From the NCBI RefSeq assembly GCF_036345255.1, contig NZ_CP107783.1, positions 7,805,001 through 7,869,000 on the forward strand: DNA of 64,000 nt. Reading direction: 5' to 3'. The translations under genes were made by a program, and so were the position numbers. The notes below the pieces were generated by a model. That model saw nothing but the letters and a program-made list of their open reading frames with translations, was not told where the DNA came from and made no database searches. Origin of the DNA: Streptomyces sp. NBC_00569. GTDB taxonomy: Bacteria; Actinomycetota; Actinomycetes; Streptomycetales; Streptomycetaceae. Numbering within the stretch: the first letter of the stretch is position 1; each line of letters begins with the position of its first letter. Of the stretch, positions 19,221-44,953 are shown one piece after another.

Positions 19221-20152
19221 GCACGACACGGAAGCACACGGCGCTGCCCAAGGCGCAGATCCTCATCGAGGCGCTGCCCTGGCTCACCCGGCACCAGGGC
19301 AAGACCGTCGTCATCAAGTTCGGCGGCAACGCCATGATCGACGAGGACCTCAAGGCCGCCTTCGCGCAGGACGTCGTCTTCCTGCACCACGCGGGCCTCA
19401 AGCCCGTCGTCGTGCACGGCGGCGGACCGCAGATCAGCAAGGCCCTCGACCGGCACGGCATCGTCAGCGAGTTCAAGGCGGGCCTGCGGGTCACCACCGA
19501 GGACGCGATGGACGTCGTGCGGATGGTCCTGGCCGGCCAGGTGCAGCGCGAGCTCGTCGGGCTCCTCAACGAGCACGGCCCGCTCGCCATCGGCCTCACC
19601 GGCGAGGACGCGCACACCATCACCGCCACCAAGCACAAGCCCGAGATCGGCGGCGAACTGATCGACATCGGCCGGGTCGGCGAGATCACCGAGATCGACA
19701 CCGGCGCCATCGAGGCCCTGCTCGCGGACGGCCGTATCCCCGTCGTCTCCTCGATCGCCCGCTCCCAGGACGACGGACACGTCTACAACGTCAATGCCGA
19801 TACGGCGGCTGCGGCCCTCGCCGCGGCGCTGGGCGCCGAGACCTTGATGGTCCTGACCGACGTCGAGGGCCTCTACGAGGACTGGCCGAACTCCGACGAG
19901 GTCATCAGCAGGCTCACCGCGAGCGAGCTGGAGAAGCTCCTTCCCGAGCTGGCCAGCGGCATGGTGCCCAAGATGGAGGGCTGCCTGCACGCCGTGCGGG
20001 GCGGCGTGACGACCGCCCGCGTCATCGACGGCCGGGTCCCGCACTCGATCCTGCTGGAGATCTTCACCGACGAGGGCATCGGCACGATGGTCGTGCCGGA
20101 CGCCCCCGAGGCCACCGACGTGAGCGCCATCGACGCACAGGGGGAGTCATGA
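19217..20152 (+). CDS. argB: Acetylglutamate kinase
   Basis: A 311-aa amino-acid kinase that phosphorylates N-acetylglutamate. Phosphate-binding motifs KFGGNAMID and VHGGGPQIS are present, with [17 protein letters not shown] in the nucleotide half. An N-terminal extension of about 30 residues ([20 protein letters not shown]) precedes the kinase core. In other bacteria this helix goes with hexameric, arginine-inhibited enzymes, so feedback control is likely. The start is ATG 19217, inside the argJ stop (ATGA); the frame remains open far upstream through argJ only because of base bias. It overlaps argD by four bases. Confidence 0.96.
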
Positions 20153-21351
20153 GCAACCAGGAGCTGACCGCGCGCTGGCAGGGCGCGCTCATGGACAACT
20201 ACGGCACGCCCCGGCTGCCCCTCGTCCGCGGCGCGGGCGCCAAGGTGTGGGACGCCGACGGCAAGGAGTACGTCGACTTCGTCGGCGGCATCGCGGTCAA
20301 CGCCCTCGGCCACGCGCACCCCGCGGTCGTCCAGGCGGTCACCGAGCAGATCGCCTCCCTCGGCCATGTCTCGAACCTCTTCGTCGCCGAGCCGCCCGTC
20401 GAGCTCGCCGAGCGGCTCCTCCAGCTCTTCGGCCGGTCCGGCCGCGTGTACTTCTGCAACTCGGGCGCCGAGGCCAACGAGGGTGCCTTCAAGATCGGCC
20501 GCCTGACGGGCCGTTCGCACATGGTCGCCACCCAGGGCGGCTTCCACGGCCGGACGATGGGCTCCCTCGCGCTGACGGGCCAGCCCGGCAAGCAGGAGCC
20601 GTTCGTACCGCTGCCCGGCGACGTCACGCATGTCCCGTACGGCGATGCCGAGGCGCTGCGGGCGGCGGTCACGGAAGAGACCGCGCTCGTGATCATCGAG
20701 CCGATCCAGGGCGAGAACGGCGTCGTCGTCCCGCCCGCCGGCTACCTCAGGGCGGCCAGGGAGATCACCCGGGCCACCGGCACCCTGCTCGTCCTCGACG
20801 AGGTGCAGACCGGTATCGGCAGGACCGGCCACTGGTTCGCGTACCAGGCGGAGGAGGGCATCGCCCCCGACGTCGTCACGCTCGCCAAGGGGCTCGGCGG
20901 CGGACTGCCCATCGGCGCGACCGTCGCGTTCGGTGAGACGGCCGAGCTGCTCAAGCCCGGTCACCACGGCACGACGTTCGGCGGGAATCCCGTCGCCTGC
21001 GCGGCCGGCCTCGCGGTGCTCGACACCGTCGCGGGCGAGGGCCTCCTGGGCAACGTCAAGCGTGCCGAGGCGCGGCTGAGGGACGGAATCACGTCACTCG
21101 GGCACCCGCTCGTCGGCCACGTAAGGGGCGCCGGGCTCCTCCTGGGTATCGTGCTCACCGAGCCGCTCGCGCCCCAGGTGCAGCAGGCGGCTCAGGACGC
21201 AGGCCTCCTGGTGAACGCGCCCGCCCCAGATGTCGTACGGCTCATGCCGCCGCTCAACCTCCACGACGACGAGGTGGACACCCTCCTCCAGGCGCTGCCC
21301 GGCGTCCTGGACAAGGCCCTCGAAGCGGCCGACGGGGAAGGACGATCCTGA
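20149..21351 (+). CDS. argD: Acetylornithine aminotransferase
   Basis: A 400-aa PLP enzyme of the class III aminotransferases that converts N-acetylglutamate semialdehyde to N-acetylornithine. It has the family stretches [32 protein letters not shown] and [14 protein letters not shown]247 in [14 protein letters not shown] is the Schiff-base lysine, and [15 protein letters not shown] follows. The start overlaps the argB stop (ATGA). It is followed after 17 bases by the arginine repressor gene, keeping enzyme and regulator in one transcript. Confidence 0.96.
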
Positions 21352-21368
21352 GGAATGGGACGACGACG

Positions 21369-21908
21369 ATGAGTCAGGCGCAGGACAACGAGCATGCCGC
21401 GGGACCCGCCGTGCCGCAGACCCGCACCGCGCGCCACCGCCGGATCGTGGACATCCTCAACCGGCAGCCGGTGCGCTCGCAGAGCCAGCTGGCGAAGCTC
21501 CTCGCCGACGACGGCCTCACGGTCACGCAGGCGACGCTCTCCCGGGACCTGGACGAGCTGGGCGCGGTCAAGATCCGCAACACCGGCGGCGAGCTGATCT
21601 ACGCGGTGCCCAGCGAGGGCGGATTCCGCACCCCGCAGGCCCCGCTCGGCGGCTCCGCCAAGGAGGAGCGGATGCGGCGGCTCGCGGGGGAACTGCTGAT
21701 CTCCGCGGAGGCCTCGGCGAACCTCGTGGTCCTGCGCACCCCGCCCGGCGCCGCCCAGTTCCTCGCCTCGGCGATCGACCAGGCGGAACTCCAGGTCATC
21801 CTCGGCACGATCGCGGGTGACGACACCTTGATGCTGATCAGCCGCGACCCGGCCGGCGGGCAGGCGCTCGCCGACCATCTGCTGCGGCTCGCCCAGAACG
21901 ACCACTGA
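21369..21908 (+). CDS. argR: Arginine repressor
   Basis: A 179-aa ArgR with an N-terminal winged helix (about 20-85; [34 protein letters not shown]) and a C-terminal oligomerisation and arginine-binding domain with [14 protein letters not shown] and [12 protein letters not shown], including the GDD aspartates that contact arginine. It should form hexamers that bind the ARG boxes seen before argC and argH. Being last in the operon it is itself under that control. A strong bidirectional terminator follows. Confidence 0.95.
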
Positions 21909-29429: not shown

Positions 29430-30929
<1,500 letters not shown>

Positions 30930-30972: not shown

Positions 30973-31118
30973 CCGCGTTGTCAGTGGCTGCCCCTAAAGT
31001 CTCCTGCAGTTGATCAACACCGGCTCACAACCGGTGCTCGTGACGCGTGCCTTCGGCGCGCGCCCACGACCGATGGTCGACATCTGGGGAACGGGAAGCG
31101 ACTGTCGGGGAGGCAGTG

Positions 31119-31976
31119 GTGGGGTGGATGCGCGCGGGCGACTATGAAGTCGCCCTGGACGACGGAGGCAAGGTCGTCTGCCGCAACAGCAAGGGGCGGC
31201 TCCTGAAGTCGGTGCCGCCGAAGATCGCCGACGAGCAGGCCGTCATCGGGCTCCGGCAGCTCACCGAGTGGCTGGAGCGGCACGAGCGCGACTGCCGGGA
31301 GCGGGCCGAGCGCTGGATGACCCGCTCCCTTCCTGTACCGGCGGCGGTGCTCGCCGAGGTCTGGCCCGACCCGGCCTGGCGCGCCGCCCTGAAGGACCTG
31401 GTCGTCACCGGCGACGACGGGACGGTCGCCGGGTTCCTGCGCGACGCCGACCCCGAGCGCGGCATCGGCCTCGTCGACCTCGACGGGGACACCGTGCGCA
31501 TCCGCCCGCGGCAGATCAGCATTCCCCACCCGGTCCTCCTGGACGACCTCGGCGAACTGCGCGAATTCGCCGTCGAGTTGGGGGTCGACCAAGGCGTCCA
31601 GCAGCTGTTCCGCGAGATCTGGACCCGCGGCGCCGACCGCGACCCGGCAGCCCAGGCGGTCGACGACTACGAGGGCGGCGCCTTCAAGGAACTCCGCTTC
31701 CTCGCCGGCCGCGCCACTTCCCTCGGCTATCGGGTGCGCGGCGGCCACGCCGTCCAGCCCGTGCTCGAAGCCGGACGCACCGTCGAGGCCCGCGTCTGGA
31801 TCGGCGACTACGAGGGCTACGCCGAGACGGAGACCGGACCGCTCACCTGGACCACCGAGGGCGGACAGGCCCTGGCCCTCGCCGAAGTCGGGCCGGTGGC
31901 CTGGTCGGAGGGCCTGCGCATGGCCGCCGCCCTCTACGCGGGCCGCGAGCTCGAGGACGGGGAGCAGGCGGCGTGA
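31119..31976 (+). CDS. DUF4132 domain protein, first gene of a YehI/L/M/P/Q-like operon
   Basis: A 285-aa protein that matches what I know of the DUF4132 domain, the domain found in E. coli YehI. It begins with the short strand-rich segment AGDYEVALDDGGKVVCRN, followed by a helical part (VIGLRQLTEWLERHERDC) and DUF4132-like elements (QQLFREIWTRGADRD, FLAGRATSLGYRVRGGH, ARVWIGDYEGYAETE). The domain has no assigned activity. GTG 31119, five bases from a GGGAGG site, is chosen; GTG 31116 and ATG 31128 are also possible. Its stop overlaps the next gene (GTGA). It starts a run of coupled genes ending at 44953. Confidence 0.72.
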   Translation: MGWMRAGDYEVALDDGGKVVCRNSKGRLLKSVPPKIADEQAVIGLRQLTEWLERHERDCRERAERWMTRSLPVPAAVLAEVWPDPAWRAALKDLVVTGDDGTVAGFLRDADPERGIGLVDLDGDTVRIRPRQISIPHPVLLDDLGELREFAVELGVDQGVQQLFREIWTRGADRDPAAQAVDDYEGGAFKELRFLAGRATSLGYRVRGGHAVQPVLEAGRTVEARVWIGDYEGYAETETGPLTWTTEGGQALALAEVGPVAWSEGLRMAAALYAGRELEDGEQAA

Positions 31977-34900
31977 ACACGGCGGTGAGCGGCGCGGGCA
32001 CGGGTCCGGGCGCGGCAGACACGACCAGCACAGCGGGTACGGCGGCTTCGGCGGGCGAGGCAGCGGGGGAGCGGGGCACGATGGGCACGGGCGACGGCAC
32101 GGTCGACACGGGAGCACTCCTGGAGGCGGGCGCCGTCCTGCTCCCCGGCGCGCACAGCGGCGAGGACGCCGACGACCTCACGGCCCGCACGTACACCCAC
32201 CCCGTCCTCGAAGGGCGCACTGTCGTGCGCCTCGTGCCGGGCACGCTCGGCGACGCCGAGGACCTCGCCCTGGACTTCCTCGGGCTGCGGCGCGAGAGCG
32301 TCCGTGACGGGCTCGGCCAGGTACGCCGCGAAACCCTCGGTTTCCCCGCCTGGGCCCTGGTGAACGACCCGGAGAACGGGCACCACGCCCTCGCCCTCGT
32401 CAAGGACGTCGAGCGCCTCGCCCGCATGGCCAAGGCCCGCGCGGGCGCCGCCAAGGACGGGTTCGAGGAGCTCGGCGAGCGCCTCGGGCGCTCCGTCCCG
32501 CACTTCCTGCCCACGTACTACGAGGAGGCGGGCCGCGCCTTCCTCCGGCACGAGAACACCACCTATGCGGCTGCCCTCTTCGGCAAGGCACGCGAGGCCG
32601 AGCGCGTCCACAGCCTCGTCGTGGACGAGCAGCGGCAGCGCGCGGTGTTCCTCGAGTTCGCCTTCGCCGGCGCGCTCACCGTCAAGGCGCTCAAGGACCA
32701 TGTGCGGGACCTGACACAGCGTCTCGCGCCGCAGGCGGCCTGGGAGCAGTACCGCAGGCTCATCGTCGAGCGCTGCGGCGCCGGGATGCCGCCGTACGCC
32801 GCCCTGCCGCAGGATGCCCGCAAGCTCATCAAGGCCGCCGGACTTGACCGGGTCGAGGAGGAGTGCCGACTGCTCGCGGACCTCCTGGCGTCCCCTGCGG
32901 TGGTACGCGCGCCCGGCACGTTCTGGACGGCGTACCGGCCCACCCTCCTGGTCCTCGCGGCGCAGGAACCCGCCGTCCGTGAGCGGCTGCTGGAGATCAT
33001 GCCGACCGGGTTCGGACACGACAACGGCTCCGAGGGCGACTGGCTGGAGCTGCTCGCCGAGACCGGCGCCGATCAGCTCCTCACCGACCCGGCCCCGGAC
33101 GCGGCCGTCGACGCGGGGGACTGGCTGGCGCGCTGGTCCACCCACCTGAAGGGCGGCTGGCGCGGGGTGCGCCGCTCCCCGATGACGTACGGCCTCGTGG
33201 AGCGCATGGCGGCCCGCCTGCGCGCCGAGGGGCGGCCGGTCGACCTGTTCCGCGGGCGCGGCTGGCGCAGTTGGGCCGACCTGGACCTCATCGACGTGTG
33301 CCTCGCGTCGGGCGTCGCCGTGGCGGACCCCGCGCCCCGCACGGACGGTCACGGGATCGGCCTCGACGACTGGTTCGGCGGACCCGACACAGGCCGCAGC
33401 GACCTCGCCGCGGTGGCCGCCGACGCGCGGTTCAGGCCCCTGCTCAAGGAAGCGATCGGCGGCAACTCCCACCGCAGCGTGGGCGGTCGCAAGACCCTCG
33501 CCGTCGCGGAACACCCGGTCCTGCGCCCGCTCCTGGCCGAGTGGCTCACCGAACAGGCCGAGGCGTTCACCGCGGCGGCGGGCCTGCCCGGCGCCCGCTC
33601 GGCACTCCAGCACCTCAGGCGCTTCCGGTCGGTCGCGGCGGACGTGGCGCCCGACGCCGTCGCCCGCGTCCGCGCCCACGACCTCAGCGGCAACCTCGGC
33701 CGCACCCTGCGCGCGGGCATCGTCGACGAACTGGGCTGGCCCGCGCTCGAAGAGGCCATGCAACTGCTCGGGCCCGTGCCCGAGCAGCGCCACGGCGGCG
33801 GGCTCACCGTCCAGGAGGCCTGGCCCGCGCTGATCGTCGCCCACCGGGACAAGGCCGTCGTCGCGGGACCCGACGGCATCCTCCTCGAACACGACCTGCG
33901 TATCCCCGGCAAGCCCGACCACTGGCGGCAGCCCGCCTTCCGCTTCGTCGGCGGTGAACTTCTCGTCACCTGGTGGCACGAGGGCAAGCAGCGCGCCTAC
34001 TGGTCCTCGCGCCCCGCCGACGTCTTCCACCTCGGCGGCGAGTCGGCCACCCAGTGGCGCGCACACACCCTGGACGCCTCCCTGCCCCTCCCCGACGGCG
34101 GCCGCAGCACCGGCGCCCGCCCCCTGCACGCGGGCGACACCACCCTGCCCAAGGAACACCGGGTCAGCGGCGACGGCGTGAACCACTGGCGGCTGCGCAC
34201 CACGAGCACGGCCAGCACATGGATCGAGTACGACCCCGCCACCGGCGCCACCGGCCGCTCCTCGCTGCCGCCGCTCCTCGCGGGCGCCGTGCATGACGAA
34301 GGACGGCTGCGGCAGGCCGACTGCCAGGTACTGCCCCTCCAGGCGGGCCTGGAGAACAGCCCCCTGGGCACCGACGGCACGGTCGTCGGCCGTTGGGTCC
34401 GCAGCGACGGCGCCGCAGACGGCGTGGAGGAGCGGCTGACGGCGGGTACGCCCGACGGTCGCGAGGTCACGCTGCCCGCCCGCTTCAGCGGCGGCGGCGC
34501 CCCCGTGCCGCTCGGCGCGCTGCGCCTGCCCGGCGGCGCGGAGCCCGTACTCGCCGTCGCCGGAACCCAGTTGGGCCTCTACGCGGACGGCGCCGGGCCG
34601 GCCGAGGGATCCTTCGGCGACATCGTGACGTCCCGCGCGGGCGCGCAATACGCGGCCGGCACGCCGCTCGTCCCGCCCGCGCCGTTCTGGCACGCCATGC
34701 GGGCCCGCGACGCGGACGGTTCCAAGGCACTGCGCGCGTTCGCCGACGGGCAGGCCGCCGCACTGGCGGACGACGCGGCGGCAGCGCTGGCACAGCACCG
34801 GAGGAAGACCACGGGCGAGGCCAGGACCGGCCTCACGGACGAGCAGAAGCAGGCTGCGTCCGACCAGTTCGGCCGCGACCTGCTCGCCGCGACCGAGCGC

Positions 34901-37138
34901 GCCCTGCCCGCGATCGGGCACCCGTCGCTGCATGCGGGCATCGGCGCCATCACGCTCGCCATGGTCCAACTCCGCGAATCCGTGGCCGAGTTCACCGACC
35001 CTCAGGCGGCGGCCGCACGGCCCGTCGCGGCGCGCAGGCAGGAGATGTTCCACGACTTCTCGCCCCACGACGGCGACGACCGGACCCTGCTCAGCGCGAT
35101 CCGCGGCGTCCTCGGCCACACCGTTCACGGCCACTGGAGCCCCGGCACCTGGAGCACACTGCGCCAGATCAGGTCCGTCGGCCACGTCATCGCGGGCAAG
35201 GCTGCCGAAGGCACCCCGCTGCCCGGCGGGCACGACCTCACGAAGCTCACCGGCGGCTGGACCACGGACGAACTCACCATCCCGAGCTGCACGTCCACCT
35301 GGCTGAGCGTCCTGCGCCACCTGCCCGCGCTGGCGTACCGCGCCACCGTCCCCGGCATGGACGAGACCGACAGATCCGCGCTCCTGCACCTCCTGGACGC
35401 CGTCGCCGAAGGCGCCCTCGCGGATCCGCACCGTCAGCTGCGCAGCGTGGAACTCCGAGAGAAGGGCGCCTACCGGCCACGCGCCGGCCAGGTCCTCCGC
35501 CTGGGCGACCGCACCGTCGCGATCCTCGCTGCGGTCCGCACGCGCAGTCACGACGACGGGGTGGACTGGCTGGCCCTCGACCACGACCCTTCGGGCGTGT
35601 TCGGGCCGGTCGCCCACTTCATCACCGGTGAGGCACAGCGGATCCCCGGCACACTCACCGGCGACCGGATCGCGTCGCTCGCCGCCCTCGTTCGTGAGCG
35701 CGGTGCCACGCCCTGGCACGCGGAGAACGCGACCGCACTGGCGGCCGCGCCAGGCTGCGGCCCGGTCCAGGCGGCGCTGCTCCTCGCGGGGCGCCCCTCC
35801 GGCGTCCTCGCCGACGACGTCGCATCCGCCGAGTGCCAGGCCCGCTCCGGGCTCACCCGCACGCAAGTGGAGGCGGGTCACGACCGCCTGACCGCCCTCC
35901 CATGGCAGGACCGCGTCGATGTGGTCACCGCGCTGCTCCCCGAGACCGTCGCCGACCTCTGGGAGACCGGGCCGGCCGTCGAGGCCGCCCGCAAGGTCTG
36001 GACGGAGCGGTTCGGCACCCTCGTACGCCTCCCCGAGGACATGGAGATCTCGCTGAACGGGGTCTCCACCATCGGCAACGCCGAGGCCGTGCTCAACCCC
36101 CGGCACACCCCGTGGCTCAGCCGCACCACCGTCCAGCGACTCCACACGGACGGCCGGTTGACGGGCGATGACGCCACCGCGGTACCGCACGTCAGGGACC
36201 TGGTGCCCGCTGTGTCCGCCCTCGGCGCGCTCGCCTACGGCTTGCCGTACGGGCACCCGCTGCGCGCCGCCCTGCCCGTCGCCCTCGAGGCCCTGCGCAC
36301 CCGGCTCGCCGACCCCGGGCTGCTGCTCCAGCTCGGCCTCGCCTGGACCGAGAAGGGCGACGCCACCGCCCCCGAACTGCGCAAGGCGTACGGCATGCCC
36401 GAGGCGGGCGGCGCCGGAGCGGACGGGCTGACGCGGGTGGGCGCGGCGTTCGTGGTCCACCCCTGGCACCGGCAGGAGGCCGTCCTCCTGCGCCCGGCCG
36501 GCCTCACCGGCCCCGACGACCCGGCGCTCGGCCTGATCGAGGGCCTCACCGGATACCGCGCGGACGCCCCACTACGGGCGATCAGGGCGGTACTGGGAGA
36601 CGGGCTCGGCCGCGCGGTGTCGGCGGGCGCGCCGGGTGTGGACGGGCCGGGTGCGGGTGGACGGGAGGCAGGACGTGAGGGCTACGCGCAGGACCCCACG
36701 CGCAGTGTCCCCGGCCTGGTCACCGAGGTCGCCGAGGCGCACGGCATCGGCGAGGACGCCGCCGCCCTCTACCTGCAACTGCTCGCCCTGCCCGACCCGA
36801 CCGACCGCAACAGCGCACGCTGGACCGGCTGGAAGTCCACCCGCATGAAGAAGGCCCGCGCCGAACTCGCCGCGACCGCACTGGTGGTGCAGGCGAAGCG
36901 CACCCGCGCGGGCCGCGGTCTGTTCCTGCCCGGCGCCTGGCTGGCGCTCAAGGCGCCCGCGCTGCCCGTCGAGTCCTGGAAGCGGGACCTGTACGACATC
37001 CCTGGCCACACCGCGACGGTCCCGCTGCGGCCCGTCCCGGAACTGTTCACCCGAGCGTGGGACCGGGTGCGCGCCGGCGACGTCCCGGCCTTCGAAGAAC
37101 TCACGACCCGCGCGACCCGGAAGGGGCGGCGCCGATGA
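31973..37138 (+). CDS. Very large (1721 aa) uncharacterised operon protein
   Basis: A giant protein in which I recognise no catalytic domain. Residues 1-45 are a low-complexity Gly/Ala/Thr tail. Then comes a mostly helical region with HEAT- or TPR-like character (for instance LPTYYEEAGRAFLRHENTTYAAALFGKAREAERV). A middle segment of beta-rich, WG- or propeller-like sequence follows (PDGILLEHDLRIPGKPDHW, RAYWSSRPADVFHLGG), and the C-terminus is again helical. No membrane segments or signal are present. The N-terminal domain resembles proteins found with DUF4132 genes in other actinobacteria, where it probably serves as a scaffold. It starts at a GTG overlapping the DUF4132 stop. An open frame reaches back 235 codons within that gene but is not used. 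Confidence 0.72.
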   Translation: MNTAVSGAGTGPGAADTTSTAGTAASAGEAAGERGTMGTGDGTVDTGALLEAGAVLLPGAHSGEDADDLTARTYTHPVLEGRTVVRLVPGTLGDAEDLALDFLGLRRESVRDGLGQVRRETLGFPAWALVNDPENGHHALALVKDVERLARMAKARAGAAKDGFEELGERLGRSVPHFLPTYYEEAGRAFLRHENTTYAAALFGKAREAERVHSLVVDEQRQRAVFLEFAFAGALTVKALKDHVRDLTQRLAPQAAWEQYRRLIVERCGAGMPPYAALPQDARKLIKAAGLDRVEEECRLLADLLASPAVVRAPGTFWTAYRPTLLVLAAQEPAVRERLLEIMPTGFGHDNGSEGDWLELLAETGADQLLTDPAPDAAVDAGDWLARWSTHLKGGWRGVRRSPMTYGLVERMAARLRAEGRPVDLFRGRGWRSWADLDLIDVCLASGVAVADPAPRTDGHGIGLDDWFGGPDTGRSDLAAVAADARFRPLLKEAIGGNSHRSVGGRKTLAVAEHPVLRPLLAEWLTEQAEAFTAAAGLPGARSALQHLRRFRSVAADVAPDAVARVRAHDLSGNLGRTLRAGIVDELGWPALEEAMQLLGPVPEQRHGGGLTVQEAWPALIVAHRDKAVVAGPDGILLEHDLRIPGKPDHWRQPAFRFVGGELLVTWWHEGKQRAYWSSRPADVFHLGGESATQWRAHTLDASLPLPDGGRSTGARPLHAGDTTLPKEHRVSGDGVNHWRLRTTSTASTWIEYDPATGATGRSSLPPLLAGAVHDEGRLRQADCQVLPLQAGLENSPLGTDGTVVGRWVRSDGAADGVEERLTAGTPDGREVTLPARFSGGGAPVPLGALRLPGGAEPVLAVAGTQLGLYADGAGPAEGSFGDIVTSRAGAQYAAGTPLVPPAPFWHAMRARDADGSKALRAFADGQAAALADDAAAALAQHRRKTTGEARTGLTDEQKQAASDQFGRDLLAATERALPAIGHPSLHAGIGAITLAMVQLRESVAEFTDPQAAAARPVAARRQEMFHDFSPHDGDDRTLLSAIRGVLGHTVHGHWSPGTWSTLRQIRSVGHVIAGKAAEGTPLPGGHDLTKLTGGWTTDELTIPSCTSTWLSVLRHLPALAYRATVPGMDETDRSALLHLLDAVAEGALADPHRQLRSVELREKGAYRPRAGQVLRLGDRTVAILAAVRTRSHDDGVDWLALDHDPSGVFGPVAHFITGEAQRIPGTLTGDRIASLAALVRERGATPWHAENATALAAAPGCGPVQAALLLAGRPSGVLADDVASAECQARSGLTRTQVEAGHDRLTALPWQDRVDVVTALLPETVADLWETGPAVEAARKVWTERFGTLVRLPEDMEISLNGVSTIGNAEAVLNPRHTPWLSRTTVQRLHTDGRLTGDDATAVPHVRDLVPAVSALGALAYGLPYGHPLRAALPVALEALRTRLADPGLLLQLGLAWTEKGDATAPELRKAYGMPEAGGAGADGLTRVGAAFVVHPWHRQEAVLLRPAGLTGPDDPALGLIEGLTGYRADAPLRAIRAVLGDGLGRAVSAGAPGVDGPGAGGREAGREGYAQDPTRSVPGLVTEVAEAHGIGEDAAALYLQLLALPDPTDRNSARWTGWKSTRMKKARAELAATALVVQAKRTRAGRGLFLPGAWLALKAPALPVESWKRDLYDIPGHTATVPLRPVPELFTRAWDRVRAGDVPAFEELTTRATRKGRRR

Positions 37139-37830
37139 GGAGGAGGACGCGCCGGGTCACCTCGGCGGTGCGTGGCTTGTGGCGTCGGATCGCGCAGCGG
37201 GCAGTGATGACCGGGGTAGTCCGGGTCGCCCCGGCGGTGCCTGGCTTGTGGCGTTGGGGCGTGCGGCGGGCAGTGACGACCGGGGTAGTTCGGGTCACCT
37301 CGGCGGTGCGACACATGCGACGGCCGGTCACGCAACCGTCGCTGGCCACCACCGAACCCGTCCCCACCGCGCCGAGCGGGCCCACCGCGCCGAGCGGGCC
37401 CACCGCGCCGAGCGCGCCGACCGTCCCGACCGCGCCGAGCGGACGGTTCCGGGGCACGCGGCTGCGGGGTTGCCGCCTGATGAGCACGACGACCGAATCG
37501 GTCCTGGCGGCGCACTGGGGAGACCGTGCAGCCTCGGGTGTCCTGGCGACGCCGACCACGACCGTCCCTGTTCCGACCGCCTCGACCACGCCGACCGTCC
37601 CGAGCGCGCCGACCACGACCGTCCCTGTTCCGGCCGTCTCGGCTACGCCGACCGTCTCGACCATTCCGAGCGCGCCGACCATCCCGAGCGGGGCGACCGC
37701 GCCGACCGTCCCCCGCGCGCGGTGTCGGGGTGCGCGGCTGCGGGAGCGTCGCCCGATGAGTACGACCACCACCGAGTCCGTCCCGGCCGCGCAGTGCGGG
37801 GCCACGCAGCCGCGGGAGCGCCGCCGATGA
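37135..37830 (+). CDS. Repeat-built 231-aa frame between the giant gene and the ATPase gene
   Basis: An open frame coupled on both sides: ATG 37135 overlaps the giant gene stop and its own stop overlaps the ATPase start (ATGA each time). The product is a Pro/Thr/Ala/Arg-rich, low-complexity chain with no homology I can name. It contains two in-frame copies of the ATPase N-terminus (MSTTTESVLAAHWG from ATG 37480, MSTTTTESVPAAQ from ATG 37756), each preceded by the same arginine-rich junction. It also contains 69-bp, 18-bp and 57-bp tandem repeats. It looks like expansion of the junction between two genes rather than an ancient gene. Whether it is a functional protein is unknown. Confidence 0.45.
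   Translation: MRRRTRRVTSAVRGLWRRIAQRAVMTGVVRVAPAVPGLWRWGVRRAVTTGVVRVTSAVRHMRRPVTQPSLATTEPVPTAPSGPTAPSGPTAPSAPTVPTAPSGRFRGTRLRGCRLMSTTTESVLAAHWGDRAASGVLATPTTTVPVPTASTTPTVPSAPTTTVPVPAVSATPTVSTIPSAPTIPSGATAPTVPRARCRGARLRERRPMSTTTTESVPAAQCGATQPRERRR
37153..37670 (+). repeat. Tandem repeats inside the junction frame
   Basis: Three families of direct repeats follow each other. A 69-bp unit (37153-37221, 37222-37290, partial from 37291) encodes RVxxAVxGLWR-type peptides of 23 residues. An 18-bp unit, CCCACCGCGCCGAGCGGG, starts at 37363 and 37381, with a third, altered copy at 37399. A 57-bp unit starting at 37551 and 37608 encodes 19-residue peptides beginning PTTTVPVP. All periods are multiples of three, so the frame stays open. 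Confidence 0.85.
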
Positions 37831-39011
37831 GCACCACGACCGACACCGTCCTGGGCACGATGCCCGCCGCGCCGCGGCAGATCGTGCCCCCCGAGGAGTT
37901 GTACGCCGACGAGCTCGCGTTCCTCGCCGCCCATGACTCCGGCCCGCGCCCTCCCGGCTGGCGGCTCACCCCGCGCGCCGTCGTCACGTTCGTGATGGGC
38001 GCCGACGAACCGCTGCGCCTGCCCGAAGGCGCCGACCCCGGCGAGGGCGTGCCGCGCCGGCTCGCCGTCCGGCGGAAGTTCGTCGGTGAGCGCGCCCTCG
38101 TGGAACGCTGCGTCGTCACGCTCGCCGGCGAGCGCGGACTGCTCCTGGTCGGCGAGCCCGGCACCGCCAAGTCGATGCTGTCGGAACTGCTCGCCGCCGC
38201 CGTGAGCGGCACCAGCGCGCTCACTGTCCAGGGCACCGCCGGCACCACCGAGGACCAGCTCAAGTACGGCTGGAACTACGCCCTGCTGCTCGCCCAGGGT
38301 CCGAGCCTGAAGGCACTCGTACCCTCACCCGTGCTCGCGGCCATGACCCAGGGCGCCGTCGCACGCGTGGAGGAGGTCACCCGTTGCCTCCCCGAGGTGC
38401 AGGACGCCCTGATCTCCCTCCTCTCCGAACGGCGCATCGCCGTCCCCGAGCTGGCAGGCACGGACGCGGCCCAGGCCCACGCGGCCCCCGGGTTCAACGT
38501 CATCGCCACCGCGAACCTCCGCGACAAGGGCGTCTCCGAGATGTCCGCCGCGCTCAAGCGCCGCTTCAACTTCGAGACGGTCGGCCCCATCGGCGACTTC
38601 GACGCCGAACTCGACCTCGTACGCCGCCAGTCGAAGGCAGCCGTCGAACGGGCGGGAGCCGTGTACCAGCTCGACGACATGGTCCTCGACGTCCTGGTCA
38701 CCGCTTTTCGCGAGCTGCGGTCGGGCCGCTCGGCCGAGGGCTGGGAGGTGGAGCGGCCGTCCACCGTGATGAGTACGGCCGAGGCCGTCTCCGTCGCGAC
38801 GGCGCTCGGCGTCGCCGCCGCCTACTTCCCCGGTGACCGCGACGCCCTCGCCCTCCTGCCGGGCCACCTCACCGGCGTGGTCCGCAAGGACGATCCGGCG
38901 GACGCGGCGCGGCTGCTCGGCTATTGGGACGGTGCGGTGCGGCGCCGTGCCGAGGAAGGTTCCGCGACCTGGCGCACGCTGTGGGACCTGCGCTCCGTCC
39001 TGGAGGGCTGA
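37827..39011 (+). CDS. MoxR-type AAA+ ATPase (YehL-like)
   Basis: A 394-aa AAA+ ATPase. The Walker A motif is GEPGTAKS (residues 109-116); the Walker B region is VARVEEVTRCLPEVQDALIS; sensor 1 is NVIATANLRDKG. The arginine-finger/sensor region SAALKRRFNFETV follows. It matches the MoxR class, whose members work with VWA-domain partners as chaperone-like remodelling machines. The N-terminal 60 residues (QIVPPEELYADELAFLAAHD) are specific to this subgroup. ATG 37827 overlaps the preceding frame's stop. E. coli YehL is the natural comparison, since the next genes match its neighbours. Confidence 0.87.
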   Translation: MSTTTDTVLGTMPAAPRQIVPPEELYADELAFLAAHDSGPRPPGWRLTPRAVVTFVMGADEPLRLPEGADPGEGVPRRLAVRRKFVGERALVERCVVTLAGERGLLLVGEPGTAKSMLSELLAAAVSGTSALTVQGTAGTTEDQLKYGWNYALLLAQGPSLKALVPSPVLAAMTQGAVARVEEVTRCLPEVQDALISLLSERRIAVPELAGTDAAQAHAAPGFNVIATANLRDKGVSEMSAALKRRFNFETVGPIGDFDAELDLVRRQSKAAVERAGAVYQLDDMVLDVLVTAFRELRSGRSAEGWEVERPSTVMSTAEAVSVATALGVAAAYFPGDRDALALLPGHLTGVVRKDDPADAARLLGYWDGAVRRRAEEGSATWRTLWDLRSVLEG

Positions 39012-39017
39012 CCCACC

Positions 39018-42000
39018 ATGACCACCGACGCGGGCGCGGCCGTCGACGCGCTCACCGATCCCGACGGGCCCTACCTCATCGGCGTACGCCACCACGCGCC
39101 GTCGCTGGCCGCGGTCGTCCCCCGACTCCTCGACGAGGCGGCCCCGGACGTCCTGCTGGTCGAACTCCCTTCCGAGACACAGGAGTTGCTGCCCTGGCTG
39201 GCGCACGAGGAGACGGTGGCGCCGGTCGCGCTCGCGGCGGTGCTCGACGGGGAGGCGGAGTCGGGCCCGGCGTTCTACCCGTTCGCGGACTTCTCGCCGG
39301 AGCTCGCGGCGTTGCGCTGGGCCGCACGGAACAGCGTCCCGGTGCTGGCCTGTGATCTGCCACTGGCGGAACGGGCCTGGCGGGAGCCGCGCGTAACGCG
39401 CCCGGCGGAACAGGCATCCGCCCCCGCCGGACGCAGGCGGAGTCTGCACGACGCGGTGCGTGGACGGCTGACCGGCCGCGACGGCGACGACCTCTGGGAC
39501 CGCCTCGTGGAGGCACCCGCCCCGGGCGCCACCCCACAGGCCCTGCGCCGCGCGGCGCTCCTCACCGGCTGGGCCCTGCGCCGCGACGCACAGGACGGCC
39601 CGGGAATCGACCCGCTCGACCTCGCCAGGGAAGAGTGGATGCGGGCCCGCCTGCGGGAGGCGGCACGAGGCGGGCGCAGGGCGGCGGCGGTGATCGGGGC
39701 GTTCCACGCGCCCGCGTTGAGCGCGCGGGCGCTGAGGGACGAGGAGCCGGGGGAGTCGGTCGCGGGGCCGTCGGCGGGGGTGCTCGGCGGGCCGGTCGCG
39801 GAGGCGTCGGCCGGGGCACCCGCAGAGTCGCCGGAGACCAGGCCCGGCGCCGGACCGTCGGCAGCCGCCCCGCCGTCGGTCGAGTCGCAGGCCCGGGTGC
39901 CCGCCGAGCCGCACGCGGAAGCCCCGGCGGGGGCGGCATCGCGGGCGGCGGCCACCTGCGCCGTCTCCTTGATCCCGTACACGTACGCGCTGTTGGACGC
40001 CCGTTCCGGGTATCCGGCCGGGATCCGTGACCCCGAGTGGCAGCACCAGGTCCTGGAGTCGGCGGGGGACCCGGCCGCGGTCGGTGAGACGGCCCTGCGC
40101 TGCGCCGTCCGCGTCACCGGCGAACTGCGCGCCCAGGGCCACCCGTCGGGTCCGGCGGACGCCCGCGAGATCCGCCGCGTGGCGGGCGACCTCGCAAGCC
40201 TGCGCGGGCTGCCCGCGCCGGGCCGGAGCGAGTTCGTCGAGGCCGTGCAGACCGTGCTGGCCCAGGGCGAGCCGCTGGGTCGCGGACGCGCCGTCGCCCG
40301 CGCGCTGGAGCGGGTCCTCGTCGGCGAGCGCACGGGCCGCGCCGCCCCCGGCGCACCCCGGGGCGGACTCGCACCGGCCGTCGAGGCGGAGCTGGCCGCG
40401 CTCGGTCTGCCGGGCCCGGCGAGTGGCGGGCGGGAGAAGGAGCTTCGGCTCGACCCCCTGCGTTCCGACCCGGACCGCAGGCGCGAGGTGCTGCTGCGCC
40501 GCCTCGCGCTGTGCGGCATCCCGTACGCGCAGGAGACCACTGTCGGCGGGGCAGGCGGGGCCGACGCGCTCACCACGCGCTGGACCGTGCGCTGGACGCC
40601 CGCCACGGCGGCGGTCCTCACCACGGCGACCACCCGGGGCGTCACCCCGGCGCAGGTGGCGGAGGGCGTGCTCCGCGCACGCCTCCGTGCCGCCCACGCG
40701 GAGGGCGGCCCGACCGCGGCGCAGGCGCTGACCACGCTCGGTGAGGCGGCCGCATGCGCGCTGTCCGCACTCGCGGCCGAATCCCTGGCAGAGGTCACCA
40801 CGGTGCTGCCCGCCATCGGCACCCTCCCGGAACTCCTCAGGGGCCTCGACCTCACCGACCGCCTCACCTCGGGCCACATCGCGGGCCTGGCCGTGCCGGA
40901 CGCCGCCACTGACCCTGCCGACGCCCCCACCGCAGACCTCACCGCCGCCCCCACCCCCTGGCCCCACGCGCTCGCCGATTGCGCCGACCTCCTCACCGTC
41001 GCCGCCGTCCGCAGCCTCGACGGGCTCGCCGGCTCCGAGGACCCGGACGACGCCCGCGCTCTGGTCGAACTCGCGCGGCGTGCCGACGTGTTCGGGGGAA
41101 TGCGGCTCGCCGACTCGCTGGCGCGGCTGGCCGACGGCGGAACGCCGCTCATGCGTGGCGCCGCGGCCGCGGTGCGCGTTCTGCTCGGGCACACCCCCGC
41201 CACCGTCTTCGGCGCACGCGCGGCGTCCTGGGTCGACACGGCCACCGATCCCGGCACCCGCGCGGAGCTCACCGCCCAGCTGACCGGCCTGCTCACCGCT
41301 GCCGGATCCCTCCTGGAGACGGCTCCCGAGGCGCTCGCCCCGCTGCTCGACCGCGTCGGCGAACTGCCCGACAGCCCCTTCCTCGAACGGCTCCCCGCCC
41401 TGCGCGGCGGGTTCGACACGCTCAGCCCGGCCGCCCGCGACCGGCTGCTCACCGTCATCGAGGAACGCATCGACGGCACCCTCGATGCCGACCTCCCCCC
41501 GGACACGGACGCGCGGACCCTGGCCGCGTGGACCACCGCGGATCTCGCCGCCCGAGAGGCGCTGGCCGCGCTCGGCCTCCTGCCCACGGCGCCGGACACG
41601 CACGACCGCCCTCACCCCGTACCCCCATCCGCTCCCACGCCCGTGACCGCTCCCGTTCCCGTCCCCCCGACCGGCGACGCCCGGATCGCCCCCGCCGAGC
41701 GATGGCGCCTCGTCCTCGGCCGGCGAGGAGATCAACTCCCTCAGGGCATCGCCCCGTTGGCGACCGCCTTGGACGAGCTGTACGGGAAGGGCCGAGGCGA
41801 AGGCGCGCGCGGCGATCTGCCCGGCGGCGCGGGCGGCCGGGGCGGGCGCGAGGCGCCCTACCCCGGTGTACGCGAATGGGCCGAGGAACTCACGGCGCTC
41901 TTCGGCCCCGGCATCCGCGAAGAGGTCCTCGCCGCCGCGGCCACCCGCGGCCGCACGGACGTCGTGTCCGCGCTCGACCCCGAAGCCGTACGCCCCTCCG

Positions 42001-42791
42001 TGGAACTGCTGCGCACCGTCCTCCAGCACGCGGGCGGCCTGCCCGAGGCCAAGCTCGCCGCCCTGCGCCCCCTCGTAAGGCGACTCGTCGACGAGCTCAC
42101 CCGCACCCTCGCCACCCGCCTGCGCCCCGCACTCACCGGCGCGGCGACCGCCCGCCCGACCCGGCGACCCGGCGGCAGACTCGACCTCGCCCGCACCCTG
42201 CGCGCCAACCTCGCGACGGCCCGGCGCACCGACGACGGACGGATCCACGTCGTCCCCGAGCGCCCCGTGTTCCACGGAAGGGCCCAGCGCTCGGCGGACT
42301 GGCGGCTGATCATCCTCACGGACGTGTCCGGCTCGATGGAGGCCTCCACCATCTGGTCGGCGCTCACCGCGTCGGTCCTGGCCGGCGTGCCCGCGCTGTC
42401 CACGCACTTCCTGGCGTTCTCGACGACAGTCCTCGACCTGACCGACCACGTCCACGACCCGCTGGCCCTCCTCCTGGAGGCACGTGTCGGCGGCGGCACC
42501 CACATCGCCGCCGGACTGCGCCACGCGCGCACGCTCGTCACCGCGCCCTCGCGCACCCTCGTCGTCGTGGTCAGCGACTTCGAGGAGGGCTACCCCGTCG
42601 GCGGCATGCTCGCCGAGGTACGCGAACTCGTCGGCGCGGGCTGCCATGTACTGGGCTGCGCGAGCCTCGACGACGCCGGGCGCCCCCGCTACTCCACCGG
42701 CATCGCGGGACAGCTCGTCGCCGCGGGCATGCCGGTCGCCGCACTCAGCCCGCTCGAACTCGCCCGCTGGGTAGGGGAGAAGATCCGTTGA
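39018..42791 (+). CDS. DUF5682-VWA fusion protein (YehM and YehP in one chain)
   Basis: A 1257-aa fusion. The N-terminal part matches DUF5682: LIGVRHHAPSLAAVV, DVLLVELPSE, GAFHAPAL (about residue 227) and LIPYTYALLDARSGYPAGI. A Pro/Ala-rich insert of about 70 residues splits it. After a long helical middle region there is a C-terminal VWA domain whose MIDAS is complete (DVSGS at 1102-1106, GGTH, VVSDFEEG), so it should bind a metal ion and a partner. In E. coli the two parts are separate (YehM, YehP). The VWA domain is expected to contact the MoxR ATPase encoded just before. GTG start, seven bases after the ATPase stop. Confidence 0.82.
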   Translation: MTTDAGAAVDALTDPDGPYLIGVRHHAPSLAAVVPRLLDEAAPDVLLVELPSETQELLPWLAHEETVAPVALAAVLDGEAESGPAFYPFADFSPELAALRWAARNSVPVLACDLPLAERAWREPRVTRPAEQASAPAGRRRSLHDAVRGRLTGRDGDDLWDRLVEAPAPGATPQALRRAALLTGWALRRDAQDGPGIDPLDLAREEWMRARLREAARGGRRAAAVIGAFHAPALSARALRDEEPGESVAGPSAGVLGGPVAEASAGAPAESPETRPGAGPSAAAPPSVESQARVPAEPHAEAPAGAASRAAATCAVSLIPYTYALLDARSGYPAGIRDPEWQHQVLESAGDPAAVGETALRCAVRVTGELRAQGHPSGPADAREIRRVAGDLASLRGLPAPGRSEFVEAVQTVLAQGEPLGRGRAVARALERVLVGERTGRAAPGAPRGGLAPAVEAELAALGLPGPASGGREKELRLDPLRSDPDRRREVLLRRLALCGIPYAQETTVGGAGGADALTTRWTVRWTPATAAVLTTATTRGVTPAQVAEGVLRARLRAAHAEGGPTAAQALTTLGEAAACALSALAAESLAEVTTVLPAIGTLPELLRGLDLTDRLTSGHIAGLAVPDAATDPADAPTADLTAAPTPWPHALADCADLLTVAAVRSLDGLAGSEDPDDARALVELARRADVFGGMRLADSLARLADGGTPLMRGAAAAVRVLLGHTPATVFGARAASWVDTATDPGTRAELTAQLTGLLTAAGSLLETAPEALAPLLDRVGELPDSPFLERLPALRGGFDTLSPAARDRLLTVIEERIDGTLDADLPPDTDARTLAAWTTADLAAREALAALGLLPTAPDTHDRPHPVPPSAPTPVTAPVPVPPTGDARIAPAERWRLVLGRRGDQLPQGIAPLATALDELYGKGRGEGARGDLPGGAGGRGGREAPYPGVREWAEELTALFGPGIREEVLAAAATRGRTDVVSALDPEAVRPSVELLRTVLQHAGGLPEAKLAALRPLVRRLVDELTRTLATRLRPALTGAATARPTRRPGGRLDLARTLRANLATARRTDDGRIHVVPERPVFHGRAQRSADWRLIILTDVSGSMEASTIWSALTASVLAGVPALSTHFLAFSTTVLDLTDHVHDPLALLLEARVGGGTHIAAGLRHARTLVTAPSRTLVVVVSDFEEGYPVGGMLAEVRELVGAGCHVLGCASLDDAGRPRYSTGIAGQLVAAGMPVAALSPLELARWVGEKIR

Positions 42792-44953
42792 CGACGCCAC
42801 ACTCTCAGCCGCGGTCTCACCCGACGCCGCAACTTCCTCCGGTACCGCCAGAGGTCACCGCCGCCGTCGTGGCCGCGCTCTCCCCGCGCCTGCGCAAGCG
42901 CCTCGACGCGGCTGTCGAGAAGCTCGCCGCGCGACCGGTGACGTCCGACGGCGGCATCTGCCGTATCGCGGTCGACGACGAGACCTTCGTCGAACTGCAC
43001 GCACCCGGAGGCACGGTCACGGCCGAGGACGCGATCCGCTGCGGCTGCCTGCTCGCCCCGGCCTGCGTGCACCGGGCCGCGGCGGCGGCCCTCGCACCGA
43101 TCGCGGACGACACATCCGCACCCGCCCCCTCCGACGCGCCCGATCAGCCGTCCCCGCCGGCCCCGGACGAGGCGGACGCAACCGCACCCCCCACCGAGCC
43201 GACCGAAGCCCGCACCTCACCGCCGCCCGCCTCTGAGCCCACGAGGGTTGCGCCGCCCACCCCTGGGCCGCCCGCCTCTGAGCCCACGAGCTCTGCGCTG
43301 CCCACTTCTGCGCCGCCCGCCTCTGAGCCCACGAGCTCTGCGCCGCCTACCTCTGGGCCGCCCGCCTCTGAGCCCACGAGCTCTGCGCCGCCTACCTCTG
43401 GGCCGCCCGCCTCTGAGCCCACGAGCTCTGCGCTGCCCACTTCTGCGCCGCCCACTTCTGCGCCCACCACCCTTCCGCCCACCACCTCCGCGCCCACCAC
43501 CCTTCCGTTCACCGGCTCCGCGCCCACCACCCCGTCCCAGGCAGCCGCCGCCGAAGCCCTGTGGCAGGCCGCCGTTCTCGTCCTCGACGCCGGTGTCGAC
43601 GGCGCCGGTGCCGTGCTCCAGGCCGGTCTGCTCAGGGCCGCCCACACAGCCCGCCTCGCGGCCCTGCCCCGGCCCGCGGCCGCCGCGATCCGTACGGTGA
43701 ACGGCCTGCGCGCGGCCCGCGCCGCCGAACCCGGCCACCGAACAGCCGAACTGGCCGACGCCCTGGCGGAGTTGCTCGCCACCGCGTACGGGCTGCGCCG
43801 ACCCGGGACCCCGGACGCGCACGCCGCCCTGCGGGGAACGGCGCGCCGCGCCTACGCGCCGGGCGGCTCGCTGCGGCTCTACGGACTGTTCACCGAACCC
43901 GTCCTCACCTCGACCGGCCACGCGGGCGTGGTCACCTGGACCGCCGACGCCGCCGGCCGCCTCTACACCGTTCCCGACGTGGCCCCCGGGGGACCGGCGA
44001 GGGCCAGGAACGCCGGTGACCGAGCCGTCAGGATGGGCGACACCGCACTCACGCACCGGGACCTGGCCCGCGCCGGGCTCGTGGTCTCCGGGGCGACCGT
44101 CTCCGCCGACGGGCGGCTCGGCGCGGGCCGGGGCGTGCGGGCCGCGGCCGCCGCGGGAGCCGACTGGACCGCGGAACCGCTCGCGGCTCTGTGGTCCGTC
44201 CCCGTGGCTCACCAGGTGGCGCGCGCCCTCGCCGCTGGAGCCGCCAAAGCCCCCCGGGCCACGGGAGAGGACCTGCTGTTCCTCGACGCCACGCTCACCG
44301 GCGTGGCCCGCGAGGCCGGCGGTGACTGCCTCCTGGCCGAGTGCGACGGGCTCACCGTGCGGCTGACCGCCGCCGACGACCACCCCGAGCTGGCCCACCG
44401 CGAGAACCTCGCCCTCCTCGCCACGGCCTCCGGGACCAGAGTCCGTGCGGTCGCGCGCCTCGTGCCCGCCGGGCATCCCCGGGCCGCCCTCCTCGCCGTC
44501 CGTCTCCCCACGGGCCGGTACGACCTCGGCCTGGACCGCCTCCAACGCCAGGACGTGACCCCCACATCACCCCTGCCGGAACCCGCACCCGGCCCAGTCC
44601 GCCCCACCCCCTCCGCTCCCCTCCACATCCTGCGCCGCCGCACGGAACAGGTGGTTGTCGCGGGCCGCCGAGCTCTGACGCACGCAGCACCGGCCCGTCC
44701 GCACACCACGGCACGGCACACCACGGCACCGCACGCCACCACACCCGACACCGCGCTCCTGCGGCGTGCCGGCCTGTCCACCGCCGCCGAGCTCCTCGAC
44801 GCGATGCGCAGATCCGCGGCCGAGCGGGGCCGCGACGGGTTCGGCCGCCTCGTCTCGGCGGACACCGACGCCTTCGCCCGTGCCTGGCTCGCCACGGCCC
44901 GATACCTCGACGAGGCGTCCACAGCCCTGTGCCGCGAGGCCTGGCGGACCTGA
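42788..44953 (+). CDS. SWIM zinc-finger protein (YehQ-like)
   Basis: A 721-aa protein. The SWIM zinc-binding motif CGCLLAPACVH is at residues 85-95 (C85, C87, C93, H95) after the typical short strand region. SWIM modules bind nucleic acid or protein. Residues 147-221 are a 15-residue Pro/Ser/Thr repeat, followed by a degenerate extension. The remaining 480 residues include FVELHAPGG upstream and RLYGLFTEPVLTSTGHAGV downstream, and have no other named domain. It starts with TTG 42788 overlapping the DUF5682-VWA stop (TTGA), with GGGGAG upstream; the frame is open much further back inside that gene but this start fits the coupling. Confidence 0.82.
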   Translation: MTTPHSQPRSHPTPQLPPVPPEVTAAVVAALSPRLRKRLDAAVEKLAARPVTSDGGICRIAVDDETFVELHAPGGTVTAEDAIRCGCLLAPACVHRAAAAALAPIADDTSAPAPSDAPDQPSPPAPDEADATAPPTEPTEARTSPPPASEPTRVAPPTPGPPASEPTSSALPTSAPPASEPTSSAPPTSGPPASEPTSSAPPTSGPPASEPTSSALPTSAPPTSAPTTLPPTTSAPTTLPFTGSAPTTPSQAAAAEALWQAAVLVLDAGVDGAGAVLQAGLLRAAHTARLAALPRPAAAAIRTVNGLRAARAAEPGHRTAELADALAELLATAYGLRRPGTPDAHAALRGTARRAYAPGGSLRLYGLFTEPVLTSTGHAGVVTWTADAAGRLYTVPDVAPGGPARARNAGDRAVRMGDTALTHRDLARAGLVVSGATVSADGRLGAGRGVRAAAAAGADWTAEPLAALWSVPVAHQVARALAAGAAKAPRATGEDLLFLDATLTGVAREAGGDCLLAECDGLTVRLTAADDHPELAHRENLALLATASGTRVRAVARLVPAGHPRAALLAVRLPTGRYDLGLDRLQRQDVTPTSPLPEPAPGPVRPTPSAPLHILRRRTEQVVVAGRRALTHAAPARPHTTARHTTAPHATTPDTALLRRAGLSTAAELLDAMRRSAAERGRDGFGRLVSADTDAFARAWLATARYLDEASTALCREAWRT
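43226..43450 (+). repeat. Five 45-bp tandem repeats in the SWIM protein gene
   Basis: Units start at 43226, 43271, 43316, 43361 and 43406 and encode PASEPTSSAPPTSGP and close variants; a degenerate sixth unit follows at 43451. The near-identity of units 2-5 at DNA level suggests recent slippage or conversion. They form a disordered linker between the zinc finger and the C-terminal part. Confidence 0.9.

Follow-up and report, generated by a model that had tools for sequence, protein, structure and literature searches.

The closest described relatives of the system considered here come from Deinococcus and Escherichia coli. In Deinococcus deserti, the ddrTUVWX operon consists of five genes, of which the two at the ends encode a SWIM protein and a CoxE-like VWA protein; it is radiation-induced under IrrE/DdrO and has no described function (PMC5552922). 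The DUF4132 protein of D. radiodurans, DRA0166, is controlled by DdrO and increases with mitomycin C, and the E. coli WGR protein MolR is described as LexA-regulated (PMC8533742). By annotation, D. taeanensis and Rhizobium etli share the gene set SWIM-DUF5691-AAA-DUF5682-VWA, to which D. taeanensis adds a small gene; a Hymenobacter has DUF5691-AAA-DUF5682-VWA, likewise with one additional gene. Here we describe an operon of five plus-strand genes encoding a DUF4132 protein, a giant protein, a YehL-type MoxR ATPase, a DUF5682-VWA fusion and a SWIM-like protein. It occupies positions 31119-44953 of a 64,000-nucleotide stretch of Streptomyces sp. NBC_00569 (contig NZ_CP107783.1, 7,805,001 to 7,869,000), hereafter the window.

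We consider it fairly likely that the operon is a horizontally moving, damage-induced protein-remodelling machine, an accessory form of the MoxR-DUF5682-VWA system. In E. coli this system is represented by YehL/M/P, and in Deinococcus probably by DdrT-X. The promoter, the second, core locus of the same genome, the mobility and the TraB-like domain described below are findings beyond an earlier first-pass annotation of the window.

Operon organization and conservation

Coding frames were located by codon composition and domains were assigned by Pfam. The DUF4132 protein (285 amino acids (aa), GTG start, 31119-31976) matches PF13569 with 88.8 bits against a cut-off of 27, the domain covering ~31194-31730. 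The giant (1721 aa, 31973-37138) has strongly conserved N-terminal and C-terminal blocks and a predicted β-propeller at ~33806-34627. Downstream are the MoxR AAA+ ATPase (394 aa, ATG start, 37827-39011; AAA_5, 130 bits), the DUF5682-VWA_CoxE fusion (1257 aa, 39018-42791; DUF5682, 658 bits; VWA_CoxE, 211 bits) and the SWIM-like protein (721 aa, TTG start, 42788-44953), all on the plus strand.

The sample of 111 neighbourhoods comprises 31 from genomes of the same family (three picked for a 660-aa short relative of the giant, five for a DUF5682 match, and the rest via giant matches) and 80 from a species-genome collection, which are the best 80 of 446 matching stretches in 84,980 species genomes. 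The exact five genes, in the same order and on one strand, were found in 87 of the 111 neighbourhoods. The remaining 24 consist of the three short-relative loci, 16 loci that reach a contig end, and five others. Among the latter, an assembly gap divides the DUF5682 gene of L127, the SWIM sequence was recovered by tblastn in L162 and L184 (in L184 beside an assembly gap), and L157 and L170 contain DUF4132 and the giant only, despite ~10 kb of downstream sequence. A few kilobases downstream of these two genes, L157 has another AAA-VWA gene pair (18894-21463, by eye). The first-pass annotation had proposed a co-conserved unit and a neighbourhood survey as its check, and the counts obtained here uphold that proposal.

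That annotation had also listed the junctions of the five parts as GTGA, ATGA, ATGA, a 6-base gap and TTGA, all of which are present. The DUF4132 and giant genes share a 4-bp GTGA overlap, the gap between the MoxR and DUF5682-VWA genes is 6 bases, and the SWIM-like gene starts inside a TTGA. One detail can be refined: the ATGA overlaps on either side are real, and the first of them, at the stop of the giant, opens a repeat-rich 231-aa open reading frame (ORF; 37135-37830, plus strand) whose own stop overlaps the MoxR ATG at 37827, so that they are not a direct giant-to-MoxR link. Among the 87 complete loci, 4-bp overlaps join DUF4132 to the giant in 82, DUF5682-VWA to SWIM in 70, and the giant directly to MoxR in 52; the bridging ORF is thus not general. 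Because these overlaps recur, the gene coupling in the operon is not due to chance. The bridging ORF holds copies resembling the MoxR start (MSTTT..ES), and within the 688-bp repeat-rich stretch at 37139-37826 the giant-end/MoxR-start junction (ATGAGCAC...) recurs several times, as though it had undergone tandem duplication.

The pairwise identities of the five proteins intercorrelate at 0.95 to 0.98 (88 sequences, no phylogenetic correction). Mean pairwise identity is 0.851 for MoxR and 0.575 for the giant, the fastest-diverging of the five. A sixth conserved gene was sought within 6 kb of the 87 loci and none was found, the widest flank family occurring at 18 of them; MFS-, DinB- and cold-shock-like proteins, as judged by eye, are among the most widespread families.

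DNA-damage-type promoter and candidate regulon

The RecA-NDp motif, tTGTCRgtg-N8-TannnT, is located 5' of LexA-independent damage-induced genes in Mycobacterium tuberculosis (PMC5656591). PafBC activates genes through this motif (PMC6789036), and the PafBC motif has been described as resembling it (PMC8223512). A shared-word search 5' of the DUF4132 gene identified CGTTGTCAG in 47 of 88 loci, whereas any word reached at most 9 in five shuffles, and this word belongs to tTGTCRgtg-8 nt-TannnT. In the window, an exact match to TTGTCRGTG-N8-TANNNT is located at 30978-31000 on the plus strand, 118 bases 5' of the DUF4132 start. It is the sole match in the window even when one mismatch is allowed (0.04 expected). 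The strict pattern has 34 sites in the 10.3-Mb genome and its reverse has none; it occurs in 55 of 109 operon upstreams versus 2 of the 1364 remaining genes in these loci, a lenient control that includes genes inside operons. No actinobacterial LexA-like box was listed among 88 upstreams.

The same genome contains a core locus (L003, C1:4420000-4439500, ~4.43 Mb), in which MoxR, DUF5682 and VWA are separate genes, divergent from SWIM-DUF5691. A strict site is present in 17 of 30 core loci; all 17 are among the 22 that have 128 bases or more 5' of MoxR, a threshold chosen post hoc. The core-locus site points away from MoxR, and in L003 it points toward the SWIM gene. The 34 genomic sites include one at the core locus and another at the window operon; therefore, both DUF5682 loci of this genome carry the motif. 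The operon is very likely under DNA-damage control, as far as the promoter sequence can tell, and the stress role that the first-pass annotation had listed among several possibilities gains support in a more specific form, namely DNA damage.

We examined 30 of the 34 strict sites (L219-L248). For 28 of them, a gene called on the same strand lies within range, and one site is inside a called gene. Ten downstream proteins were scanned. RecA, UvrB, XseA, RadA, DnaX and Ung pass the curated cut-offs; three more, namely a DinG/YoaA-like protein truncated at the locus end, a RarA-like protein and a helicase protein, stay below theirs, and one has no match at E 1e-40. The called start of dnaX overlaps the motif site. 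These 34 sites probably constitute a PafBC-type regulon in Streptomyces: with several of them at repair genes, they point to a damage regulon whose existence was left open in PMC9380542. Further neighbours of the sites, by eye, are thyX (L227), rpsF (L236), a TerD-like gene (L242) and a lone VWA gene (L220).

Distribution and horizontal transfer

A DUF5682 protein of some kind is encoded in 147 of 150 genomes of the Streptomyces family. Matches to a 486-aa piece of the giant occur in 43 of 101 genomes and include some short relatives or fragments, and the giant N-terminus was found in 8 of 396 Actinomycetota genomes, 7 of them of its own genus. The accessory operon does not track the genomes that carry it. 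Between its proteins and the core DUF5682 protein, identities are correlated at only r = 0.41 to 0.49 (nine genomes, no phylogenetic correction), a different sample from the 88 sequences that gave 0.95 to 0.98 within the operon. In one pair of genomes of the same genus the core protein is 80% identical and the giant 40%; in a pair from different genera the respective values are 70% and 65%.

The giant has matches in 11 plasmid records, and in five of these the match covers at least 80% of its length. The two records examined are both linear megaplasmids that carry the complete operon with transposase genes nearby. Each has a loose-form promoter site that also fits TGTCRGTG, and in both the public annotation names the giant 'DNA-binding protein' and the SWIM gene product 'hypothetical protein'. 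No match to the giant was found in 50,697 phage records. Judged by these sequence comparisons, the five-gene operon moves horizontally between genomes and megaplasmids. In the window, argH (29502-30929) is directly upstream. It is also near the operon in 2 of the 80 species-genome loci (L145, L152) and in 1 of the 31 same-family loci (L070); argH is rarely beside other copies, and therefore the insertion sites of the operon vary.

Domain composition of the encoded proteins

The window MoxR matches YehL with an hhalign probability of 100 (E 6e-74), and its P-loop GEPGTAKS is present in 101 of 101 sequences. In profile comparisons, DUF5682 matches YehM with a probability of 99.7 and the VWA domain matches YehP with 100. 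The metal-binding MIDAS motif DxSxS, reported as intact in the first-pass annotation, is indeed so in 90 of 90 VWA sequences, 89 of them with DVSGS. Within the fusion protein the TraB-like region covers ~39057-39752, DUF5682 39117-42023 and the VWA domain 42108-42773, the VWA match ending at residue 1252 of 1257.

TraB/TIKI-like domains have conserved GxxH, E and GxxH residues. The DUF5682 head fits this pattern: G22, R24-H25-H26, E49, G227 and H230 are invariant in ten sequences that include YehM and the core protein. A structural match to the DUF5682-VWA model, at E above 0.001, is consistent with a TraB-like domain, although the head is covered only by three Tetrahymena entries among the structure matches listed. 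Searches of PDB sequences with the DUF5682 profile and with the head gave nothing useful. Taken together with the model, these residues suggest that the beginning of DUF5682 probably adopts a TraB-like fold.

The giant has no Pfam family above cut-off (its one match, at E 0.23, is far below) and none in NCBIfam or PADLOC. Seventeen members compared with Pfam gave single-member matches only (best E 0.013), and a profile of the giant had no match among PDB sequences. A model of residues 576-1721 has a pLDDT of 85.8, and propellers dominate the structural matches listed for it, filling that list; on this basis the giant is predicted to hold a β-propeller. The possibility that it is a split-off N-terminus of YehI was rejected, as hhalign comparison with YehI and a YehI-like alignment gave nothing, and profile comparison with DUF5691, SWIM, MoxR and DUF5682 was not significant either. 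Free-standing proteins of ~630-660 aa resembling the C-terminal region of the giant were observed in three loci (L083, 6267-8246; L084; L085). In L083 this protein adjoins a UvrA-like ABC protein, and an SNF2 helicase and a SWIM protein are nearby.

The DUF4132 protein matches the end of YehI-like proteins with 89% probability. The SWIM-like protein has no Pfam match in the window copy, the Pfam SWIM family being sub-threshold in three of six relatives scanned. Its CxC-x5-CxH motif (43040-43072) is found in 28 of 29 sequences, the window protein included. Profile comparison with single YehQ and core SWIM sequences was not significant. After the motif, tandem Pro/Ser/Thr-rich repeats (~PPASEPTSSAPPTSG) were noted by eye at 43170-43540.

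Proposed mechanism and alternative explanations

DNA damage would act through PafBC to start transcription from the site at 30978-31000, alongside recA, uvrB and the core DUF5682 locus, all of which have sites of this kind. The five co-conserved proteins, made as one translationally coupled set, would then assemble, and it is likely that they form one complex. By analogy with other MoxR-VWA pairs, MoxR hexamers may drive conformational work through the VWA domain. The giant, with its predicted propeller and helical regions, would choose the client together with the DUF4132 and SWIM-like proteins, and the client would most likely be proteins on damaged DNA. The putative TraB-like head of DUF5682, with its conserved H, E and H residues, would cleave or hold this client. 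We regard as unlikely the narrower proposal that DUF5682 is a TraB-like metallopeptidase powered by MoxR-VWA and aimed by the giant, DUF4132 and SWIM proteins at proteins stuck on damaged DNA. If true, it would amount to damage-induced, ATP-driven clearing of DNA-bound proteins, with a core set in several phyla and a mobile second set in Streptomyces.

Several observations weigh against a damage-induced machine. The strict motif is missing from 54 of 109 operon upstreams, and the loci are mutually related. Looser forms are more frequent (TTGTC-N12-TANNNT is present in 93 of 109 operon upstreams versus 2 of 964 flanking genes, and relaxing the pattern further gives 109 of 109 versus 14 of 964), but they were set after the misses had been seen. 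A strict site is lacking in 5 of the 22 core loci with enough upstream sequence. Two of the 30 genomic sites have no called gene within range, and several precede genes without an obvious repair role, by eye ABC-transporter-like (L229, L235) and transposase-like (L221). An initial search found no conserved mycobacterial PafBC motif in S. venezuelae (PMC9380542). Outside actinobacteria, no alphaproteobacterial LexA box was found near the start of the Rhizobium core operon, and the LexA-like box before E. coli yehF is weak, with 13 of 20 consensus positions and a tie with another place. Finally, Foldseek returned no match at E ≤ 0.001 for the DUF5682-VWA model or the giant model.

One alternative is an anti-phage or other conflict system like the MoxR-vWA ternary systems (Kaur et al. 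2020). In it, a threshold would be set by the MoxR-VWA pair, with the giant as sensor or effector. Such a system would account for the sporadic spread, plasmid carriage and incongruent history of the operon and for the rapid divergence of the giant. The predicted propeller of the giant and the P-loop GEPGTAKS, a match to the GXXXTAKS variant found in the FtsH and β-propeller ternary systems, are consistent with it, but the same P-loop is present in E. coli YehL, and the bpMoxR model scores 22.9 bits, below its curated cut-off of 27. The five proteins have no effector domain by Pfam and no useful PADLOC match (only E 0.019, to a restriction enzyme model). Defence genes are not enriched around the operon: at 1e-10, PADLOC identified 8 families among 124 flank proteins of 28 loci versus 13 in a control of equal size (the first 124 in a random draw of 140 out of the 153 proteins called in 20 arbitrary regions of related genomes). 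Together with the absence of the giant from the phage records and a promoter of the kind found at DNA repair genes, these results make a conflict system distinctly unlikely, and neither PADLOC test supports the defence role that the first-pass annotation had considered possible.

It is similarly improbable that the operon encodes a chaperone for metallo-cofactor insertion or complex maturation, like CoxD/CoxE, NorQ/NorD or RavA/ViaA, which would serve a damage-induced enzyme and would not act directly on DNA-bound proteins. The combination of a CoxE-type VWA domain with intact DxSGS and a YehL-type MoxR fits such a role, in which well-studied MoxR-VWA pairs act (PMC9976466, PMC13036017); however, the families in the 6-kb flanks vary, with no dedicated client enzyme seen beside the operon. 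Least probable, in our view, is a general stress chaperone in which SWIM and DUF4132 are regulators, the giant is structural and the damage control is incidental. A heat/oxidative-stress sigma factor also belongs to the mycobacterial PafBC regulon (PMC8223512), which would suit this explanation, but the Deinococcus relatives are also damage-controlled, by an unrelated regulator, and the core locus of this genome has the same kind of site.

Comparison with known systems

Like the MoxR-vWA ternary systems (PMC7159879), the window operon combines a MoxR-VWA pair with a large partner, a GXXXTAKS P-loop and a predicted propeller. It differs from the described systems in having no effector domain, FtsH or known third component by Pfam, and its VWA protein is without the C-terminal β-propeller of subsystem 4, the predicted propeller being in the giant instead. 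SWIM, yeh, MolR and WGR do not occur in the main text of that paper.

The E. coli yehI-yehL-yehM-yehP-yehQ operon shares with the window homologous MoxR, DUF5682 and VWA proteins, a DUF4132 domain and a SWIM protein. In contrast to the window, its DUF4132 domain ends a 1210-aa protein, the VWA protein is separate, and there is no giant. The equivalence drawn in the first-pass annotation therefore stands for YehL, YehM and YehP; YehI corresponds only at DUF4132, and YehQ shares the SWIM-type motif but is not significantly alignable with the window protein. The giant has no detectable relation to YehI or other yeh proteins.

The core locus of the same genome likewise has MoxR, DUF5682, VWA and SWIM parts and the same strict damage motif, but it differs in its DUF5691 partner and divergent genes, and its DUF5682 protein is ~34% identical to the window copy. 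A DUF5691 partner was found in one core locus each of Streptomyces, Deinococcus, Rhizobium and Hymenobacter and is not annotated in the E. coli operon. In the window, none of the five proteins has a DUF5691 match by Pfam, and comparison of the giant with one DUF5691 sequence was not significant; therefore, the window operon was classed as a variant, and not a core member, of the MoxR-DUF5682-VWA system.

The ddrTUVWX operon (Deide_18730-18690) resembles the window in its SWIM and CoxE-like VWA proteins and its damage regulation (PMC5552922), and the D. taeanensis operon, by annotation, in its SWIM, AAA, DUF5682 and VWA genes. We infer that these two are the same gene set, the SWIM and VWA products being the ones seen named for ddrTUVWX. 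The Deinococcus set differs from the window in having DUF5691, no DUF4132 or giant, a separate VWA gene and DdrO/IrrE as regulator. A two-mismatch DdrO motif, with the consensus taken from a partial published passage, is located just before the SWIM gene of D. taeanensis and is the best match over 18 kb, with 0.26 expected in a shuffled locus.

The DUF4132-DdrO and MolR-LexA part of this link is already published (PMC8533742), and in the open-licence PMC literature we found no report linking MoxR-DUF5682-VWA to DNA damage in actinobacteria. The E. coli yeh genes, the Deinococcus ddrTUVWX genes and the Streptomyces DUF5682 loci belong to separate literatures and are linked here as one kind of machine. 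It would stand under different damage regulators: a PafBC-type regulator as suggested by sites in the sequence, DdrO as published and, with weak support, LexA. This reading offers a concrete stress, DNA damage, for probing the function of the yeh, ddr and DUF5682 genes alike.

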